Shown here piece after piece: positions 5,336 to 62,122 of a stretch of DNA of 64,000 nt. A model generated the notes under the pieces. It was not told where the DNA came from and ran no database searches. It saw only the letters and a program-made list of their open reading frames with translations. Numbering within the stretch: position 1 is the first letter of the stretch; each line of letters starts with the position of its first letter. A program made the translations under genes and the position numbers. This DNA comes from Methylacidimicrobium fagopyrum. Its GTDB lineage: Bacteria > Verrucomicrobiota > Verrucomicrobiia > Limisphaerales > UBA11358. The stretch lies in contig JAMFSJ010000008.1 of NCBI GenBank assembly GCA_026225255.1, forward strand, positions 1 through 64,000. Direction: 5' to 3'.

Positions 5336-7147
5336 TCAAAACTTCTTCAATTCCGTGCTGGCGAGTTGGATCAATGGCTTGATGGTCGCGGCACCGAATT
5401 GGAATTTGCAGCCGGCGGCGGAAAATAATTCCGGCAATGGACGCGAACCGCCGAGTGTCAGGGATTTTTTGTAATCGTTCAACGCCTTTGCTTTGTCGCG
5501 CTTGGAATTCGCCCAGACTTGCAACGCGCCGAGTTGCGCGATGCCGTATTCCACGTAGTAAAACGGATAGAGAAAAATGTGGAGCTGGCGATGCCACGAA
5601 TGCGCGCGCGCTTCCTCGAAGCCCGTCCAATCAATGTCGCCGCCGAACCGGTCCATGAGTTGCAGATACGCCGCTTTGCGTTCGGCGCGCGTGTGATCGG
5701 CATGCGTGTAAATCCAGTGCTGAAACGCATCCACCACCGCCATCCACGGAAAAAATCCGATGATGCCTTCGAGGTGCGTCTTGCGGGCGCGATTCGCCTC
5801 AGCTGAAGGCAGTGGGACAGGCGTCTTGCCGGTCGCCTTGAGATCTTTATTCGCAGTCGAATCTGACAGGCTAGAAGCCTGTCCTACTACGGGATAAAAC
5901 TCCTCGAGAAATTCATTACCGAGCAGTTCCATCGCCATGGACGCCACTTCGCAAAACTCAATCGGCGCATTGCGATACGGATACAAATCTTCACCGCGCG
6001 TCGCTTGGGCGTGAAACGCATGACCAGCCTCGTGCAAGATCGTTTCCACATCGCGTTGCAAGCCGACGGCATTCATGAAGATGAACGGCACGCGCGCCTC
6101 GGACAACGTGGATTGATAACCGCCCGGCGCTTTGCCTTTGCGATTATCCAGGTCGAGCAACTTCAAATCCTGCATCTGCTGAAAACCCGCCGCGAGTTCG
6201 CCGTCGAGTTTATTGAAGATATTCTGCGTGCGACTCACCATCTCGCCCACTTCGGCAAACGGCTTTAATGGCGCGCGATTCTGCGGGTCCACCGCGCTAT
6301 CCCACGGACGGAGTTTTTCCAACTTCAACTGACGTTTGCGATCGTTCTGAATTTCGCGGACGGTGGGAACGATCTCGTGGGCGATCGCATCGTGGAATTG
6401 TTCGCAATCAGGCGGCGTATAATCGAACCGTCCCTTCAGGCGAAAGATGTAATCACGATAATTCTTGAAGCCGGAATTCTTCGCGATCTGCGTCCGCAAC
6501 TGGACGAGTTGATCAAAAATCTCTTCGCACTTCTCCACGTCCTGCATCCGGCGTTTCGCGACCCTCTCCCAGGCTTCCTGGCGCAACGCGCGGTCCGGTT
6601 CCTCAAGGTAACGGCCCATCTGCACGAGCGTTTTTTCTTCACCACGAAAATTCACGGTCTGCGCGCCGATCAACTTTTGATACTGCTGGCCGAGCTTGGC
6701 CTCTTCGGTTTCCAACGCGACGTTTTCCGGGCGGAACAGTTCGACGTGGTTCTGCACTTCACGGTCGAAAACTTCGTAACGCGGTTTCGGCAAATTTGCC
6801 CGTTGCGGATGCGCGACGTAAAGTTTCTCCAATTCGAACTGGCGCGGCTTAAGATGCGGCTCGATGTGCTCGACGAAATAGAGATAGGCTTTTTCCGCCT
6901 CGAGATTATCCGTGTGACATGTCATCGCGATGTTGCGGCGTGAAGATTCTTCGTCCAACGCGGCGGAAAGTTCGCTCCAATCAAGCAACCACTGTTCGAG
7001 GGCGGCCACCGATTGGGCGGACGCGGCGCGTGTTTCCAATTGATCGAACAACGGCGCGATCAACGGCCAATCGCCGAGGTCAATGTCTGACGGCACAAAC
7101 GTGCGCGGTTTCGCAGCGGCCAATTTTCCGAACGGCAATAAATTCAT
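5336..7147 (-). CDS. M3 family oligoendopeptidase (PepF-like)
   Basis: A 603-residue zinc metallopeptidase of the M3 (thimet/oligoendopeptidase) family, which cleaves short peptides in the cytoplasm. The zinc motif HEAGH lies near residue 372, and the downstream FCEVASMAMELL supplies the third ligand Glu, as in PepF-type enzymes. No signal peptide is seen. Between about residues 419 and 445 the protein carries a low-complexity stretch (VVGQASSLSDS...GKTPVPLPS) encoded by an 80-bp palindromic repeat (5811-5890). The stretch lies after the zinc site, and the frame stays open on both sides. Family assignment is firm; the substrate is not known. Confidence 0.9.
   Translation of the reverse strand: MNLLPFGKLAAAKPRTFVPSDIDLGDWPLIAPLFDQLETRAASAQSVAALEQWLLDWSELSAALDEESSRRNIAMTCHTDNLEAEKAYLYFVEHIEPHLKPRQFELEKLYVAHPQRANLPKPRYEVFDREVQNHVELFRPENVALETEEAKLGQQYQKLIGAQTVNFRGEEKTLVQMGRYLEEPDRALRQEAWERVAKRRMQDVEKCEEIFDQLVQLRTQIAKNSGFKNYRDYIFRLKGRFDYTPPDCEQFHDAIAHEIVPTVREIQNDRKRQLKLEKLRPWDSAVDPQNRAPLKPFAEVGEMVSRTQNIFNKLDGELAAGFQQMQDLKLLDLDNRKGKAPGGYQSTLSEARVPFIFMNAVGLQRDVETILHEAGHAFHAQATRGEDLYPYRNAPIEFCEVASMAMELLGNEFLEEFYPVVGQASSLSDSTANKDLKATGKTPVPLPSAEANRARKTHLEGIIGFFPWMAVVDAFQHWIYTHADHTRAERKAAYLQLMDRFGGDIDWTGFEEARAHSWHRQLHIFLYPFYYVEYGIAQLGALQVWANSKRDKAKALNDYKKSLTLGGSRPLPELFSAAGCKFQFGAATIKPLIQLASTELKKF
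5811..5890. repeat. 80-bp palindromic element inside the M3 peptidase gene
   Basis: The element begins AGTGGGACAGGCGTCTTGCC and ends GGCTAGAAGCCTGTCCTACT. The two outer arms are near reverse complements and each contains its own small hairpin. It is the same family as the elements at 16568-16726 and 59781-59860 (outer GTGGGAC, inner AGGC...GCCTGTC). It is read through in frame by the peptidase gene on the minus strand. Confidence 0.8.
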
Positions 7148-10735: not shown

Positions 10736-10790
10736 CGGAGCGCCGAGCATTGCTCGGCATCGCCAACAACGTGCGATCAACCAGCAACCT

Positions 10791-10907
10791 CATGGAGTGC
10801 GGCGGGAAGCGCAGCGCCACGCCGCTTTTGCACCTTATCATTTTGTTTGGTCGCCACCGTCTAAAAGCGGTTTCGCCCCTTCGCTTTGCCACCGCAGTCC
10901 ATTACGC
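10791..10907. repeat. Orphan REPIN-like repeat (copy A)
   Basis: Two REP-like hairpins in inverted orientation. The left begins CATGGAGTGCGGCGGGAAGC, with stem GCGGCG...CGCCGC. The right is GCGGTTTCGCC...ACCGCAGTCCATTACG. It is the same family as the copies flanking the RAYT gene at 51 kb, where the left stem is GCGGTG...CACCGC, a compensatory change on both sides. The right arm is the most diverged of the three copies. Confidence 0.8.
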
Positions 10908-10988
10908 GTTCGTTTTGCTAATGGCTGTTTGAACTTTTACCGCGCCTAAATTTCTTGGCCGAAAACCCACGACGGAGTAAGTTGAAGC

Positions 10989-15477: not shown

Positions 15478-16557
15478 TTAACCAATCTTCACCAGTGCAT
15501 TTGTCCGCGCAGCCTCGAAGCACGCGTCCAAAACAAGCTGCGTTTTCGTGGACCACATCGGCCAGTCGGCGTTTAGTTTGCCGGTGGCGATTTGCTCGGC
15601 GAAATGTCGCCACATCCGCGCGTCGTGCGCGTGCGCGTGACCTTGAATTGTAGCATCAACGCCGGGCGGACATTTTACGTCGCTCTCGGTAACGATTGTT
15701 TTGCGATTCACCTCAAAAGCCGGTTCGTAGCTGTTGAACGGATGCACAAAATCAGGCACGAGCAGCCAGCCTTTTTGGCCGCTGACGTGAACCCATTGCT
15801 GGCTGGCGGTGAGAAATGAACTGTAAAATGAAAACGAAACACCGCCGTCAAAAAATAATTCAGCGGAAAAATCCGTCGGCGCGGACGGACGATCCGGCAA
15901 CGCTTCGGACTGCGCCAAAATTTTCGCCGTGACCGTGTGCGGCATTTGCCAGTTCAACGTCCACAGCGCAAAACGGATCGAATACCAGCCGAGATCGCCG
16001 AGGCAACCGGCCGGTTCCAGCGCGCCGTTCGCACGGATGTTGTTCTTAAAAAACTCTTCGCCGGGATAAAAACTGAACGCGGACGAAATGCGCCGCAGCG
16101 CGCCGACACTTTTATCATCGTCCAAAACTTCGCGGATTTTCGCGAGCCGCGGGCTGTGCATGAACATCACGCCGTCCATGAATTGCACGCCGTTTTTTTG
16201 ACAGGCAACGATCATTTCGGCGAGTTCGGACGCATCGTTCGCGCAAGGTTTTTCGCAGAGGACGTGCTTGCGATTTTCGGCGGCGCGCAGAACGAATTCT
16301 TTACGCAGCGCGGTCGGCAATGGAATGTAAACGGCGTCCACCGCAGCGGACGCGAGCAATTCTTCGTAACTGCCAAAAGCGAGCGGCTTTTCGTCGAAGG
16401 TAAAATCGCGCTGACAATCGTCAATGAATTTGAGGCTTTTCTCAACGTCGCGACTGGCGACGGCGGAAACCACGGCGTTCCCGGAATGAAATATTGCCTT
16501 CCAGTTTTTCTTGCCGATGCCGGCAGTGCTCAGAAATCCGATTCGTAATTTTTTCAT
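15478..16557 (-). CDS. Gfo/Idh/MocA family oxidoreductase
   Basis: A 359-residue NAD(P)-dependent oxidoreductase. The N-terminal Rossmann strand is RIGFLSTAGIGKKN, and the EKP motif (LCEKPCANDASE) lies near residue 97, as in glucose-fructose oxidoreductase and inositol dehydrogenase relatives. The C-terminal alpha/beta domain carries the sugar-binding region. Such enzymes oxidise or epimerise sugars and cyclitols; the substrate is not predictable here. The N-terminus has no signal peptide, so it is probably cytoplasmic. It is separated from the chelatase gene upstream by a repeat element. Confidence 0.88.
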   Translation of the reverse strand: MKKLRIGFLSTAGIGKKNWKAIFHSGNAVVSAVASRDVEKSLKFIDDCQRDFTFDEKPLAFGSYEELLASAAVDAVYIPLPTALRKEFVLRAAENRKHVLCEKPCANDASELAEMIVACQKNGVQFMDGVMFMHSPRLAKIREVLDDDKSVGALRRISSAFSFYPGEEFFKNNIRANGALEPAGCLGDLGWYSIRFALWTLNWQMPHTVTAKILAQSEALPDRPSAPTDFSAELFFDGGVSFSFYSSFLTASQQWVHVSGQKGWLLVPDFVHPFNSYEPAFEVNRKTIVTESDVKCPPGVDATIQGHAHAHDARMWRHFAEQIATGKLNADWPMWSTKTQLVLDACFEAARTNALVKIG

Positions 16558-16567
16558 AAAATTTAAT

Positions 16568-16726
16568 TGGTGGCACGGGCGTCTCGCCCGTCAAATTCGG
16601 CGTCCCGCCGGATTTCGATTTTGATTTCCATCGTTTGTTGACCTGCGCAAATCAAAACCCATCCACGCTTGTAAACAGTTTTGGGCGAGACGCCCGAAAC
16701 AACAGGCCAGAGGCCTGTGCCACCCA
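16568..16726. repeat. Palindromic element, GTGGCACGGGCGTCTCGCC family
   Basis: The left side (GGTGGCACGGGCGTCTCGCC, from 16569) and right side (CAGGCCAGAGGCCTGTGCCA, ending near 16725) form the ends. Internal copies (GGGCGAGACGCCCG near 16683) make further hairpins. It is a longer, compound member of the family found in coding frames at 5811-5890 and 59781-59860. Here it lies in the spacer between two minus-strand genes. Confidence 0.75.
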
Positions 16727-16728
16727 GA

Positions 16729-17559
16729 TTATTTTGCCGCTTCCCGCACGCGTTCCAAAATCACATCGGCCATCAACGGTTCGCTGCCGACGGCGGGCGA
16801 ATACCAAACGAGTTTATCATTCTTTTCCATCGGATTACGCCATGTTGGCTGGCCCGCGGTCAGGCGCTGTTTGACAATGCGCTCAGCTTCACCGAGCAAC
16901 ACCGGAATATCTTCCTGCGTGTGCAAGCCGTCACTGATAAAAAACGGCACGACGACCAGATTCTTCGTTTGCGCCAAGGCGTAGCACTCCGGAATACGCG
17001 GTGATTCATCCAGAAAAATTGCGTAAACGTCAGCGTAGACATTCTGCGCGCGAATCAATTCGACCTGTCGCTCGATGGCGTGGCGTGAATTTTTATTCTT
17101 CTCTGTGCCGTGACCGGCGATGAACAGCGTGGTGCTGGCTGCTTTGGGCAGACGCGGAAACGGAAATTGTTTCATCACTTCCGCCGCACGCGACAAAATG
17201 ACTTTCGTCATATTGTCGTGCGAACCGACGGGACGGCAGTAGAATAATTCTGAGTTTTTAGTTTTTAATTTTAAGTTATCGGGAAAGCTAAACCCAAGCT
17301 CCTTTGGGATCACTTCGCTGGCGAAATAGCCTTCGCTGATGAACAGCGGCGCAATGAAAATGCGCGGCGCGGAAATTTCGGCGAGGACGGTTTTGATGTG
17401 CGGTTCTTGTTTCCAAAAGGCAGCGCGGACTTCGCGAAAGAGATTGCGCCGACGCAATTCCGTCACGTGCTGATAAACGGTCGCGGCGGATTGATCGTTC
17501 AACGTCGTGCCGTGCCCCATCACGACGAGCACGGCATCGGAGAAAATTTCGCTACTCAC
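16729..17559 (-). CDS. CbiX/SirB-family chelatase-like protein
   Basis: A 276-residue protein with two CbiX-like halves. Each begins with a metal-binding-type strand ending in GHGT (VVMGHGTT near residue 14, IAGHGTEK near 144) and has a PLF/PFF-ISxG motif (APLFISEGYFASE, VPFFISDGLHTQED). CbiX and SirB insert Co or Fe into sirohydrochlorin for cobalamin or siroheme. No other tetrapyrrole gene is in the window, so the metal and pathway are open. It may also be one of the CbiX-like proteins of unknown role common in this phylum. Confidence 0.8.
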   Translation of the reverse strand: MSSEIFSDAVLVVMGHGTTLNDQSAATVYQHVTELRRRNLFREVRAAFWKQEPHIKTVLAEISAPRIFIAPLFISEGYFASEVIPKELGFSFPDNLKLKTKNSELFYCRPVGSHDNMTKVILSRAAEVMKQFPFPRLPKAASTTLFIAGHGTEKNKNSRHAIERQVELIRAQNVYADVYAIFLDESPRIPECYALAQTKNLVVVPFFISDGLHTQEDIPVLLGEAERIVKQRLTAGQPTWRNPMEKNDKLVWYSPAVGSEPLMADVILERVREAAK

Positions 17560-51045: not shown

Positions 51046-51172
51046 CGTCATGGAGTGCGGTGGGAAGCGCAGCGCCACACCGCTTTCGCGCAACTTATGA
51101 TGTCTTTATTCGTTTGACCGTCTTACGTCCGAAAGCGGTGTCGTCGCTTTGCTTTGCCACCGCACTCCATGA
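51046..51172. repeat. REPIN-like repeat upstream of the RAYT gene (copy B)
   Basis: Two REP-like hairpins in inverted arrangement: GTCATGGAGTGCGGTGGGAA with stem GCGGTG...CACCGC on the left, and a second (GCGGTGTCGTC...CACCGCACTCCATGAC) on the right. It is close to the reverse complement of copy C at 51839, so the two copies face each other across the transposase gene. Confidence 0.85.
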
Positions 51173-51268
51173 CGCTTTCGGTTTATCATCAACCACGGTG
51201 TTCCTTGTGTGTCTTTTGAAATTCAATAGGGTCTTGTCATTCTCGCTTGAACCCGTCAGTTTTAGTTT

Positions 51269-51837: not shown

Positions 51838-51838
51838 C

Positions 51839-51965
51839 GTCATGGCGTGCGGTGGCAAAGCAAAGCGACGACACCGCTTTCGGACGTAAGAGGGTCAAAC
51901 GAATAAGAACATCACAGGTTACGCGAAAGCGGCGTGGCGCTGCGCTTCCCGCCGCACTCCATGAC
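51839..51965. repeat. REPIN-like repeat downstream of the RAYT gene (copy C)
   Basis: Near reverse complement of copy B, with arms GTCATGGCGTGCGGTGGCAA and a right hairpin GCGGCG...CGCCGC ending in CTCCATGAC. Both B and C are followed by GCTTTCGG. Where B has the stem pair GCGGTG/CACCGC, C and A show GCGGCG/CGCCGC, a compensatory difference that supports the hairpin. Confidence 0.85.
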
Positions 51966-52038
51966 GCTTTCGGATTATAGTTTGCCTCAAACTTGTTCGG
52001 TAGCGTCTTGCTGCGCGTTGCCGCTCTACCCCAAAATA

Positions 52039-58593: not shown

Positions 58594-59730
58594 ATGAAAC
58601 GCATTCTTTTTGCCGGTTGTATCTTGGCCACAGCGCTTTTTTCCGCCCATGCGGACGCGCCGGCAGATAATTCCCAATCGCTGCTCGTCGTTAAAAAATA
58701 TCTCACGGATAACCTCCAGAAAATGGACGCCGCCACGCACGACTTCGTCACGAATGCCGCGGCTTATCAGGCGATTATTGATGATGCCAAAGGTGATTAC
58801 GATCTCGCCGCCAGCGAACACGGCGTGGAACTCGGCGAACTTGTGAAAAAAATGCAGGGCGATTTCGGCCGGTATCATAACCACGGTTACGAAACGATCG
58901 AAGGCATTGTCGCTGGCACGAAGAAAATGGTTTGGTTCGACAATTATCTCGACGGCGGCGTGCCGGCGAACGAAGCCTCGACGGATTCACCGGAATCACC
59001 GCTCGTGCTCAAAGCGCGCGACGGCACGATGATCAGCAATCACAACGGCAATCTTTTTCATTACGTCGTCGAGCCGACGTTGTGGGGCACGCGCACGGCG
59101 TTCTTGAAAAAATTAAGCCCCGACGCGCAGGCGAAATTGAAGGCGCAATACGAAGCCATGTTGAAAACCAAATTGAACGCCGGTCCAGTTGCCCTGCCCC
59201 GCGCCGACATTTTGGCCGCCGCCGCGATTGATTGCGCCGCAAAAATGGATTTGCTCGTGCAAGTCGCCAACGAGTGGCAACCGACGACGGGCGAAGTCAT
59301 CGGCGCGCTCGTCTGGATGACGCCGACGCTCAACGGTTATTTTGATGACTGGCGCGATTCGCGTTACAATCCCGTTGCGACCGGCCATTACGTGGCCGAA
59401 AGCCGTGTGCTCGATATGCGCGGCATCATGTATAGTTTGAAAATCGCCAACGACGCGATCGTCCCGCAGCTGCAATCGAAAAACCCCGGCCTCGCCGAAC
59501 AGTTGACCTACGAATATAACAACATCATTTCCTTCATTGACCGCGTGGAACAACGCGATGCGAAGAGCGGCTACAAGATGAGCATTCCCGCGATCGAAGA
59601 ATTGGCCGAACAAGCCAAGACGATGACGGATCAATTGCAGCCGCAGCTGCGTCAGATGGCGGCGATTTTGGGCGCGGAAATTCCGGAAAAACCCACCCTC
59701 GGAAGCATTGAAGTGCCGGTGCAGAAATAA
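58594..59730 (+). CDS. Imelysin-like exported iron-binding protein (candidate)
   Basis: A 378-residue protein with a signal peptide (MKRILFAGCILATALFSAHA). Around residue 90 it has YHNHGYETIEGIVAG, a motif reminiscent of the GxHxxE metal site of imelysin/EfeO proteins. The mature part is mainly helical. It sits 19 bp upstream of a large FTR1 permease gene, which matches the EfeO-FTR1 partnership, so a periplasmic metal-delivery role is likely. The match to imelysin is from motif and context only, and no copper-type domain is visible. Confidence 0.6.
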   Translation: MKRILFAGCILATALFSAHADAPADNSQSLLVVKKYLTDNLQKMDAATHDFVTNAAAYQAIIDDAKGDYDLAASEHGVELGELVKKMQGDFGRYHNHGYETIEGIVAGTKKMVWFDNYLDGGVPANEASTDSPESPLVLKARDGTMISNHNGNLFHYVVEPTLWGTRTAFLKKLSPDAQAKLKAQYEAMLKTKLNAGPVALPRADILAAAAIDCAAKMDLLVQVANEWQPTTGEVIGALVWMTPTLNGYFDDWRDSRYNPVATGHYVAESRVLDMRGIMYSLKIANDAIVPQLQSKNPGLAEQLTYEYNNIISFIDRVEQRDAKSGYKMSIPAIEELAEQAKTMTDQLQPQLRQMAAILGAEIPEKPTLGSIEVPVQK

Positions 59731-59749
59731 TTTTTCCCGACGCATCCAG

Positions 59750-62122
59750 ATGAAATTCGGTTTCTCAAAATATTCTTCAAGTAGTGGGACCGGCCTCCAG
59801 CCGGTTTTACTTCCTGAAAAGTCGATCGCATTCGGACAGGCAGGATGCCTGTCCCACTACTTTACTCGAATTTCAAAAAATATTATTTGCTCCGCATTGC
59901 TGGCGGCGACATTCGCGTTGCCGACCATTTCCCGCGCGACCTTGAGCGATGATTTTCACGGCGTTCAAACGAAGTTGAACGATGCGTTGCTCGATGTGTA
60001 TTCGGGTGATACGACAACCAATTTACCCGCGCAAATTTCCGCGAGCTTCGCCACGCTAAAACCTTACATCGAAGGTTACGCGGTCGCGGACGCCGACCAA
60101 ATTCTCAACGCGCCGATACCGGCGGAACTTTCCGCCGCAGGCCAGATCGGCGTTGCGCGCGGACGCTTGCAGCACGTCGCGGCGCTGGCGATGTTGCAAT
60201 GCCAGAAGTCGGGGAATTTTTCCGGCGCGCAACAATGGCGCGCCCTGATCACGCTGCCGCAATTCGCCAACGGCGTAGACAGCGCGATGTTGTTGCAGAA
60301 TCCCGAAGTCGCCCGCAAGCCGGAAGTCGGCGCGACGCTCGCCAAGGAATACCTGGAATGGGAAACGATGCGCGTCCGGCAGTTGCTCGATTTTTTACAA
60401 CAGCAAGTTGCCATCAAAGCCGAGGATCAAAATGTCATCAACGCGAACGAAAATGAAATTCGCACGCTCGCCACGTTCCCGAACGAATTGGTGCAAAGCG
60501 CCGGTTTAACGAATCATTTGACGACGGTGACTTCGACGGTGGCGTGGAATGATGCCGCTGATCAAACCAATAAAATCGCAGCGGTCACCGCGTGGCGCGA
60601 CCAGGTGGAAGCCGGTTTGCCCAATCTTTTGACCGCGGCGGATATTGGCCGGATGCAACGCCTGCTCGCGCGCTGTGTGAAATTGATCCCCCGCGAATAT
60701 TCGCACGGCGTCGCCAACGGTAAATTACTTATCGCGCTGGAATATCGCGAGGCCATGCAGTTCACCGAGCAATCGCAAACGCTCGTCAACCAGCTGGCGC
60801 CGGTTTGGAAACAGGAACAACCGGAAATTTATGCGCAGTATCGTCCGCCCTTGACCGAGAAACTTTCCGGCCTGCAAAACCTGCTCGTCAATTTTGCGGC
60901 GCAGGATGATTTGGATAATCAAAGCAAAGAAATTTCCGCGATCCTCGAGGATAAATTCAAGATCACTGCGCGCCGCGCCGGCGACAGCGGCGACGTGATT
61001 GACGAAACCGTTTTGGAAGTGCGCGCCGCGCTCGGCGGTTCGCTGGCCGCCGCGCAAAACGATCAATGGGAATCCGCCGAATCTCAACGCATGGACGCTT
61101 ATACGGCGTTCGACACGGAAATTGAAGCGCGCGTTTTGCCCCGCGATCCTGATTTGGCGATGAAGGCCGAACGCAGTTTTCTGGCCGGTGACGGTTCGGA
61201 ACTCGGCATCAAAGCGTTGCTCGACCGGCATGCGCCGATGGATCAACTCGAAGCCGCTTACGCCCGCACCTTGGGGCTGCTCACGCAAAGCACGGAGCTG
61301 TTGAAAGTCGCCGTTGAGCCGACCACGATTGGTTTCACTGCGTTCACGATTGTGGCGCGCGAAGGCTTGGAAGCGATCATCATTCTCGCCGCGCTCATGG
61401 CCGGTTTGCGCGGCGCAGAATATGCGTCCACCCGCAAAGGCATCGCCGGCGGCGCGTGGATGGGATTGGTCGTCACGGCCATCACCTTCTGGCTTTCGCG
61501 CACGATCATTCATTCCCTCACGCGCTTTGGCGAAAAACTAGAAGCCGTCGTTTCCGTGCTCGCCGTGATTATTTTATTCATCGTCACGAACTGGGTTTTT
61601 CATCGGGTGTATTGGGTCGGCTGGAATTCCAAATTGCGTTCGCTTTCAAAATCCGCGCAGGACGTTTCCTCGACGCGCTGGGAATGGCTGGCACTTTTGG
61701 GCGTCGGTTTTCTCACCGTCTATCGCGAAGGTTTTGAAATGGCGCTGTTCCTGCAATCGCTCTTGCTCGAAGGCAGCAAATCCGCCGTGTTCCTCGGCAG
61801 CGGCGTCGCGGTTTTATTTTTGATCGCCATCGGCATGTTGACGTTCCGTTACGGCGTGAAACTGCCCTATCGTAAGCTCATGGTGCTGACCGGACTGCTA
61901 GTCGTTTCCATCATGGTCACGTTCATGGGCTCGACGGTGCGCCTGTTCCAAACCGTCAATTGGATGCCGATTCATCCGGTCTATTCGTTGCATCTGCCGA
62001 ACTGGACGGGACTCTGGCTCGGCCTTTATCCGAGTTGGGAAGGACTTCTGATTCCACCGCTCGCGCTGGTTTATGTCGGCGGCATGTGGTTGTTCAATAA
62101 ATTGCGTTCGCGCAGGGTATAA
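59750..62122 (+). CDS. Large FTR1 family iron permease with exported N-terminal domain
   Basis: A 790-residue protein. The start at 59750 (MKFGFSKYSSS) precedes a signal peptide (ISKNIICSALLAATFALP, cleaved after SRA). Between the two lies an 80-bp palindromic element (59781-59860) read in frame, giving GTGLQPVLLPEKS...GQAGCLSHY. The exported helical domain (about 80-540) is followed by seven membrane segments with two motifs, AREGLEAIIIL near 548 and YREGFEMALFL near 665. It is the second gene after the imelysin-like protein and ahead of an OprB porin, forming an iron-uptake operon. Confidence 0.82.
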   Translation: MKFGFSKYSSSSGTGLQPVLLPEKSIAFGQAGCLSHYFTRISKNIICSALLAATFALPTISRATLSDDFHGVQTKLNDALLDVYSGDTTTNLPAQISASFATLKPYIEGYAVADADQILNAPIPAELSAAGQIGVARGRLQHVAALAMLQCQKSGNFSGAQQWRALITLPQFANGVDSAMLLQNPEVARKPEVGATLAKEYLEWETMRVRQLLDFLQQQVAIKAEDQNVINANENEIRTLATFPNELVQSAGLTNHLTTVTSTVAWNDAADQTNKIAAVTAWRDQVEAGLPNLLTAADIGRMQRLLARCVKLIPREYSHGVANGKLLIALEYREAMQFTEQSQTLVNQLAPVWKQEQPEIYAQYRPPLTEKLSGLQNLLVNFAAQDDLDNQSKEISAILEDKFKITARRAGDSGDVIDETVLEVRAALGGSLAAAQNDQWESAESQRMDAYTAFDTEIEARVLPRDPDLAMKAERSFLAGDGSELGIKALLDRHAPMDQLEAAYARTLGLLTQSTELLKVAVEPTTIGFTAFTIVAREGLEAIIILAALMAGLRGAEYASTRKGIAGGAWMGLVVTAITFWLSRTIIHSLTRFGEKLEAVVSVLAVIILFIVTNWVFHRVYWVGWNSKLRSLSKSAQDVSSTRWEWLALLGVGFLTVYREGFEMALFLQSLLLEGSKSAVFLGSGVAVLFLIAIGMLTFRYGVKLPYRKLMVLTGLLVVSIMVTFMGSTVRLFQTVNWMPIHPVYSLHLPNWTGLWLGLYPSWEGLLIPPLALVYVGGMWLFNKLRSRRV
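59781..59860. repeat. 80-bp palindromic element inside the large FTR1 gene
   Basis: Left end GTAGTGGGACCGGCCTCCAG, right end GACAGGCAGGATGCCTGTCC followed by CACTAC. The ends are reverse complements and each holds its own small hairpin. It matches the element at 5811-5890 in length and arm sequence. It is read in frame, adding about 27 codons before the signal peptide. Confidence 0.82.

Follow-up and report, generated by a model that had tools for sequence, protein, structure and literature searches.

The question raised by this locus is whether a palindromic DNA element can be read as part of a conserved metallopeptidase, and what kind of element that would be. The window, i.e., the complete stretch of 64,000 nucleotides analyzed, carries an M3 peptidase gene whose product is closest, by sequence and fold, to the solved structures of Pz peptidase A and oligoendopeptidase F; a structure search with the model confirmed the M3 fold and yielded nothing beyond it. 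The gene has one match in the M. fagopyrum genome (G000), and the protein is present in 53 of the 59 genomes searched. A sequence-only reading had described an 80-bp palindrome at 5811–5890 of this gene that adds about 27 residues past the zinc site and leaves the frame intact. We found the palindrome at this place and in frame, with bounds that lie slightly further out and give 82 bp instead of 80 (Table 1). It encodes VVGQASSLSDSTANKDLKATGKTPVPL, following the HEAGH motif, in which H372, E373 and H376 are invariant in the M3 alignment and which we take to have the zinc role.

The element consists of two inverted hairpin units, GTAGTAGGACAGGCTTCTAGCCTGTC in the reading direction of the gene and GCAGTGGGACAGGCGTCTTGCCGGTC opposite to it, with a 30-bp spacer between them. 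Its feet are GTAG at one end and GCAG, i.e., not GTRG, at the other. As single-stranded DNA, positions 5808–5894 fold with −17.3 kcal/mol (z −3.76), and 0 of 200 shuffled sequences were as stable. The GTAG-type foot, the two opposed hairpin units and many dispersed copies are the marks of GTAG-tagged REP dimers, and the M3 element shows all three.

Table 1. Features of the M3 locus, other palindromes of the window and host proteins with an embedded RAYT. Positions refer to the window unless genome and contig are given.
Feature	Position	Strand	Remarks
M3 (oligoendopeptidase F-type) metallopeptidase gene	5336..7147	-	603 aa, stop included; Peptidase_M3 match (PF01432), E 1.9e-46; PDB 3ahm, 2h1j
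HEAGH, residues 372-376	6020..6034	-	from translation; N-terminal to the insert in the protein
Family-A REPIN-like element	5809..5890	-	82 bp; in frame, encodes residues 420-446; missing from most relatives
First REP	5865..5890	-	1 mismatch to family-A pattern
Second REP, inverted	5809..5834	+	1 mismatch to family-A pattern
Second family-A element of the window	59781..59860	+	80 bp; in frame near N terminus of 804-aa ORF 59708-62122
Family-B element	16570..16723	+	GTGGCAC heads, 154 bp; between ORFs 15478-16557 and 16729-17559, both minus strand
PriA with in-frame RAYT (L234, L317)	G000:C57:45305-48112		
AlaRS with RAYT (L301, L302, L304-L308)			
ThrRS with RAYT (L303)			
ClpB with RAYT (L311-L313)			
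DnaE with RAYT (L314, L316)			
DinG-like with RAYT (L296)			
HsdR-like with RAYT (L315)			

We compared the site in relatives by aligning 29 M3 loci and then 119 loci plus the M. fagopyrum protein (120 rows, several assemblies being represented twice). As proposed in the sequence-only reading, the stretch was missing from most relatives and its flanks aligned directly: 113 of the 120 rows have three residues where the M. fagopyrum protein has 31 (419–449), with two rows among the 113 (L028, L143) stopping just past the site and two others (L146, L147) stopping short of it. The nearest row on the M3 tree, L012, is 87% identical and has no insert, so the stretch is not common to all relatives; among the rows compared it occurs in its own species only. 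The insertion most likely took place after the split from this nearest sampled relative. Relative to empty sites the gene gained 28 codons, i.e., 84 nt or 82 + 2. The gain is thus not exactly the length of the element, and host bases beside the element also differ in the PutA, IspG and ValRS genes; no clean target duplication was seen.

An AlphaFold model of the M3 protein (36 sequences, pTM 0.86) shows residues 421–445 as coil with pLDDT below 50, flanked by helices 396–417 and 448–481, which makes the insert a disordered interhelical loop; in the solved structure 2h1j, this place is taken by two residues. We consider an in-frame insertion into a conserved peptidase to be supported, because the stretch is missing in nearly all relatives, the flanks align and a flexible loop is modeled. 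Tolerance of the element would rest on its stop-free frame and on the flexibility of the loop it adds, which joins the zinc-site helix to the following one.

The same M3 loop holds other inserts in three species (L010, fold z −4.2; L016, z −2.6; L011, PLTPTLSPSGGEG, z −1.1), and L036 has four extra residues there. In several species, other sequences lengthen a second loop near residue 120, and many of these look palindromic on inspection. A quick tree of 39 rows requires a minimum of 4 changes for the first loop and 8 for the second, in a count that does not distinguish gain from loss, scores inserts of up to 7 residues as empty and does the same for L146 and L147 at the first loop, although they end earlier. 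Occupation of the loops is therefore recurrent.

Genome-wide, an initial pattern covering half-sites of either kind matched 119 times in M. fagopyrum versus 4 times for the reversed control (1 mismatch allowed). Two repeat families were found, i.e., family A with a GTRGTGGGAC foot and commonly 79–80 bp, and family B with a GTGGCAC foot and mostly 153–154 bp. The family-A half-site pattern GTRGTGGGACMGGCN5GCCKGTC, again with 1 mismatch allowed, gave 17+19 = 36 half-sites in M. fagopyrum and 0 matches for the reversed pattern. Relatives had 24 (G035), 13 (G009), 13 (G020) and 9 (G019) matches; the pattern was present in 18 of the 49 genus genomes, and the reversed control matched once overall, in G032. 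The window holds two A elements and one B element. One family had been assumed for all three palindromes, which is correct for the M3 element and 59781–59860; for 16568–16726 it was ruled out by the GTGGCAC heads and the length of 154 bp. A REP match at C61:14092 was also rejected, being a GGTGKTP stretch, presumably the conserved motif of LpxK, and not a repeat.

Placement of the repeats was scored on stretches around the matches listed in M. fagopyrum, with half-sites paired and coding called from 180-nt flanks by a dicodon model, for which these stretches also served as training set, at cut-offs set by the analyst. Among these matches, 12 of 17 family-A pairs, the M3 pair included, are flanked by coding sequence in one open frame, versus 3 of 32 non-A pairs, which are mostly family B with a few atypical ones assigned by default (Fisher p 2e-5); the pairs at 59781 and C48:90612 (2/17) were judged by hand. 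Three listed pairs (59781, C27:27604, C53:74274) lie near the N terminus of a long ORF. The remaining listed A pairs are C48:90612, with 13 open codons upstream and 282 downstream, and C10:37165, which is not continuous with a long ORF. None of the 47 pairs scored among the matches listed had coding sequence on both sides in different frames. Single half-sites stand outside these pair counts: among the matches listed, six belong to family A, none with coding on both sides and two at contig ends, and two of nine others lie in genes, one of them the false match on C61. The literature searched contained no account of a family that is mostly intragenic to this degree.

Hosts of the 12 in-gene pairs according to Pfam and NCBIfam are M3, MutS, PurL, valyl-tRNA synthetase (ValRS), IspG, a PutA-like protein, an EssC/FtsK-like ATPase, a GSDH-domain protein (two copies), a short-chain dehydrogenase (SDR) and a DUF5107-TPR protein, which has two copies plus an N-terminal one outside the 12. 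Two family-A copies, 59781–59860 in the 804-aa ORF and C53:74271–74350 in a GH127-domain protein, were seen in frame just ahead of an apparent signal peptide. A single family-A half-site (C49:63441–63462, L085) lies in frame in a Pro/Ala-rich stretch of the DNA polymerase III gamma/tau gene.

To compare loops of other hosts, we searched eight relatives with a concatenated query and aligned the matched regions; insert ends for fold tests in relatives were cut by eye. In MutS, 7 of 8 relatives have an insert of different sequence in the same loop, all seven with fold z ≤ −2.6. The eighth, G004 (L121), has about 120 extra, domain-like residues there. The PurL loop has an insert in 6 of 7 relatives, four with z ≤ −2.2 and two weaker (L126, −0.8; L127, −1.9), and the SDR loop has one of z ≤ −3.0 in 6 of 8, the exceptions being L134 and the incomplete L136. 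The palindrome fold test thus failed for the inserts of PurL L126 and L127, SDR L136 and L134 and M3 L011. The ValRS loop is filled in 1 of 3 relatives (G013), and the IspG and PutA loops were empty in both relatives aligned for each. The SDR insert of G009 (L129) is family A itself, which favors descent over renewed entry; it may be an older shared insertion. Several features suggest that some inserts are mosaics: the MutS inserts of G009 and G001 have one pair ahead of a right-hand remnant, GACGCTCGYCCCACC, whose family is whole in G003, G034 and G026. The G003 MutS insert matches 55 times in G003, 64 in G017, 7 in G034 and 6 in M. fagopyrum, and is therefore a genome-wide repeat in some species. 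We conclude that in MutS, PurL, SDR and M3 the inserts occupying the same loop differ from species to species and are mostly palindromes, a pattern of which the literature searched gave no account.

Repeated occupation of the same loops might also be expected if the M3 loop were a selected functional insert, with a regulatory, binding or RNA-hairpin role, that is merely repeat-derived. The uneven use of reading frames points the same way. One frame of family A is closed by the TAG of GTAG, and among the matches listed 11 of the 12 in-gene pairs read VGQASS or a near variant and one reads SGTGFQPV (binomial p 0.006 versus equal use of the two frames that TAG leaves open). However, this bias comes partly from stops, as frame 2 is closed in 14 of 34 strand readings and frame 0 in 11 of 34. 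Moreover, the same peptide appears in unrelated hosts, one and the same loop holds different inserts across species, and the M3 segment is predicted to be disordered and confined to its own species among the rows compared. A selected function is hence unlikely.

An 82-bp mobile insertion close to the active site would often inactivate its gene, in which case the M3 gene would be decaying and its open frame due to luck or youth. However, Nei–Gojobori dN/dS versus L012 was 0.087/1.06 upstream and 0.065/0.82 downstream of the insert, i.e., about 0.08 on each side with dS near saturation, and it was similarly low versus L024 and L010. Both halves of the gene are under purifying selection, there is no further frame break, and HEAGH is retained. 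Given the low dN/dS on either side of the insert, the gene looks functional, with a tolerated loop; a very recent loss without a frame break would be compatible with these values, and we judge inactivation to be very unlikely. An assembly or binning artefact, to which the fragmented assembly (79 contigs, 86% complete, contamination estimate 2%) might point, is hardly credible, with in-frame family-A pairs at 12 places of this genome among the matches listed, and with relatives, each assembled on its own, that carry inserts of other families in frame.

The M3 stretch is hence very probably a miniature non-autonomous mobile element, a REPIN-like GTAG-REP dimer, inserted in this lineage, tolerated by its host protein and dependent on a RAYT for its spread. 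We infer translation of the insert, tolerated function and RAYT-driven mobility. Spread would most likely proceed via a RAYT, i.e., an HUH tyrosine transposase, acting on the REP hairpins. The incomplete M. fagopyrum assembly has five Y1_Tnp matches, and family-A REPs were found within the 1.5-kb flanks of none of these genes (0/5). A RAYT flanked by family-A REPs was found in the congener G035, inside DnaE, with the REPs at C361:449–474 and 1206–1231. The family of the M3 element is therefore linked to a transposase, in another species.

One of the five Y1_Tnp matches lies in a 1082-aa frame, which is PriA. Here, the RAYT directly precedes the FLLHGVTGSGKTE helicase motif and has a 97-bp repeat, 80% identical, on each side; a second priA-type copy was not found in this genome. 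A search with the RAYT core gave matches in 40 of 49 genus genomes. The host count covers the 21 matching ORFs whose open frame reaches 690 aa or more. All 21, from 16 of the 49 genomes, read as a host protein plus a RAYT: PriA (6), AlaRS (7, in two loops), ClpB (3), DnaE (2), ThrRS (1), DinG-like (1) and HsdR-like (1), with hosts named by Pfam for 8 of the 21 and by likeness to those for the remainder. Some frames run past the end of the stretch or contig, and the HsdR-like frame, which ends just past the RAYT, may be a truncated gene. Y1_Tnp was matched by Pfam in 5 of the 8 proteins scanned (E up to 1e-5). HUH-type and tyrosine motifs are kept in 21 of 21 embedded RAYTs, that of L308 reading HAH, and repeats matching across the RAYT accompany all 21. 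No splicing domain was noticed in the Pfam lists of the 8 proteins, and tblastn did not find a RAYT in the PriA of G068 (949-aa frame).

Across the order (116 genomes), none of the Y1_Tnp matches listed lies in a frame longer than 333 aa, in a list ranked by score in which embedded RAYTs score low; embedding is therefore not the rule. One order member, G048, has at least 30 Y1_Tnp matches in its single genome. RAYTs inside host proteins were not reported in the literature searched, most subscription papers and preprints being outside its scope, and they are a stronger novelty than the M3 element.

The embedded RAYTs differ in their history. In AlaRS, RAYT cores from different loops and species are up to 93% identical. 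Three AlaRS pairs have a RAYT dN of 0.04–0.06 at dS 1.6–1.8, with dS 0.29–0.88 for the N-terminal host parts; the amino acids have therefore been kept, and the history of these RAYTs differs from that of their hosts. Between G021 and G024, the PriA RAYTs have dS 0.23 versus 0.8–1.3 for their hosts, and the rise in identity starts close to the insert, a pattern that is homing-like in one pair over 127 codons. In contrast, the ClpB pair (RAYT dS 0.97; host 0.82 and 0.73) and the PriA pair G031/G035 (RAYT 1.38; host 1.46 and 1.38) fit plain shared descent, against homing. The other two RAYT pairs have dS above, not below, that of the host. RAYTs of G000 and G030 in the same PriA loop are 31–36% identical to those of G021, G024, G031 and G035, and this loop was therefore probably entered by RAYTs at least twice. 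Where PriA has no RAYT, the loop is 14–87 residues long among the parsed rows (of 36 rows, 7 were unparsed, and some are duplicates). The G062 PriA (L284) has a solo repeat in the same loop, resembling those around the RAYT in G035 PriA; it could be what a lost cassette left behind, or have been inserted separately.

We therefore put forward, as a tentative proposal with somewhat less than an even chance of being right, that REP/RAYT elements of this Limisphaerales-like genus have adapted to life in proteins. Complete RAYT cassettes with REP-like repeats on either side would add in-frame domains to loops of proteins that are essential (PriA, AlaRS, ClpB, DnaE, ThrRS), repeatedly entering the same loops, sometimes in a homing-like manner, and would be kept since their frame-breaking loss would be lethal; the 27-residue M3 insert would be the non-autonomous form. 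Inteins and other homing elements likewise sit in frame at recurring sites of conserved, essential proteins, and inteins splice themselves out. The RAYT segments, in contrast, would stay in the protein. This would be a possible splicing-free route by which conserved proteins acquire whole loops, and even a transposase domain, from mobile DNA. Between species, palindromes are exchanged in MutS and PurL loops and RAYTs in PriA and AlaRS, which provides natural replicates for studying tolerance to insertion, and for asking whether RAYTs re-target occupied sites.

Intragenic REPs as such are known. GTAG REP dimers share the GTAG-type foot and intragenic copies with family A, and in the accessible part of their description (Di Nocera et al. 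2013, PMC3733652) intragenic ones are most frequent in Opitutus terrae, with repair and tRNA synthetase genes among the hosts. The same part reports different REPs at about the same site in recB of X. campestris and X. oryzae, and describes no in-frame RAYT genes inside host genes. The GTAG REPs treated there are mostly intergenic, whereas family A is mostly intragenic (12/17 pairs among the matches listed). REPINs share two inverted REPs with a spacer, a single-stranded DNA hairpin, dispersal and the link to RAYTs, but are extragenic as far as available from Bertels and Rainey (2011, PMC3116915): of the 1,067 occurrences of the most abundant REP 16-mers in P. fluorescens SBW25, just 14 overlap genes. 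Family A, with its listed pairs mostly in frame in genes, does not share this placement, and we therefore call the M3 element REPIN-like. The likeness to Rickettsia palindromic elements suggested in the sequence-only reading stands as an analogy, i.e., a palindrome in frame in a protein gene, and not as a family assignment, the M3 element being a GTRG-tagged REP dimer. In the sections of PMC3733652 at hand, which cite the Rickettsia elements, intragenic repeats of R. conorii are counted under the CGTC superfamily; they come from another phylum and differ from the M3 element in foot type.

RAYT/TnpAREP proteins and REPtrons have HUH and tyrosine motifs and flanking repeats in common with the embedded copies. 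Known RAYTs are short, however, with subclass medians of 148–325 aa in the part of a TnpAY1 survey that we could draw on (PMC6006769), whereas here they lie in frame inside host proteins. Proteins of unexpected length were discarded in that survey, in the same part, as fused genes or faulty annotations. Long RAYT proteins dropped on such grounds may be real.

The window also contains a 129-nt inverted repeat (51046–51174 and 51838–51966) with arms that are 93% complementary and 663 nt apart; by its appearance, this repeat belongs neither to family A nor to family B. A related partial copy lies at 10787–10916.
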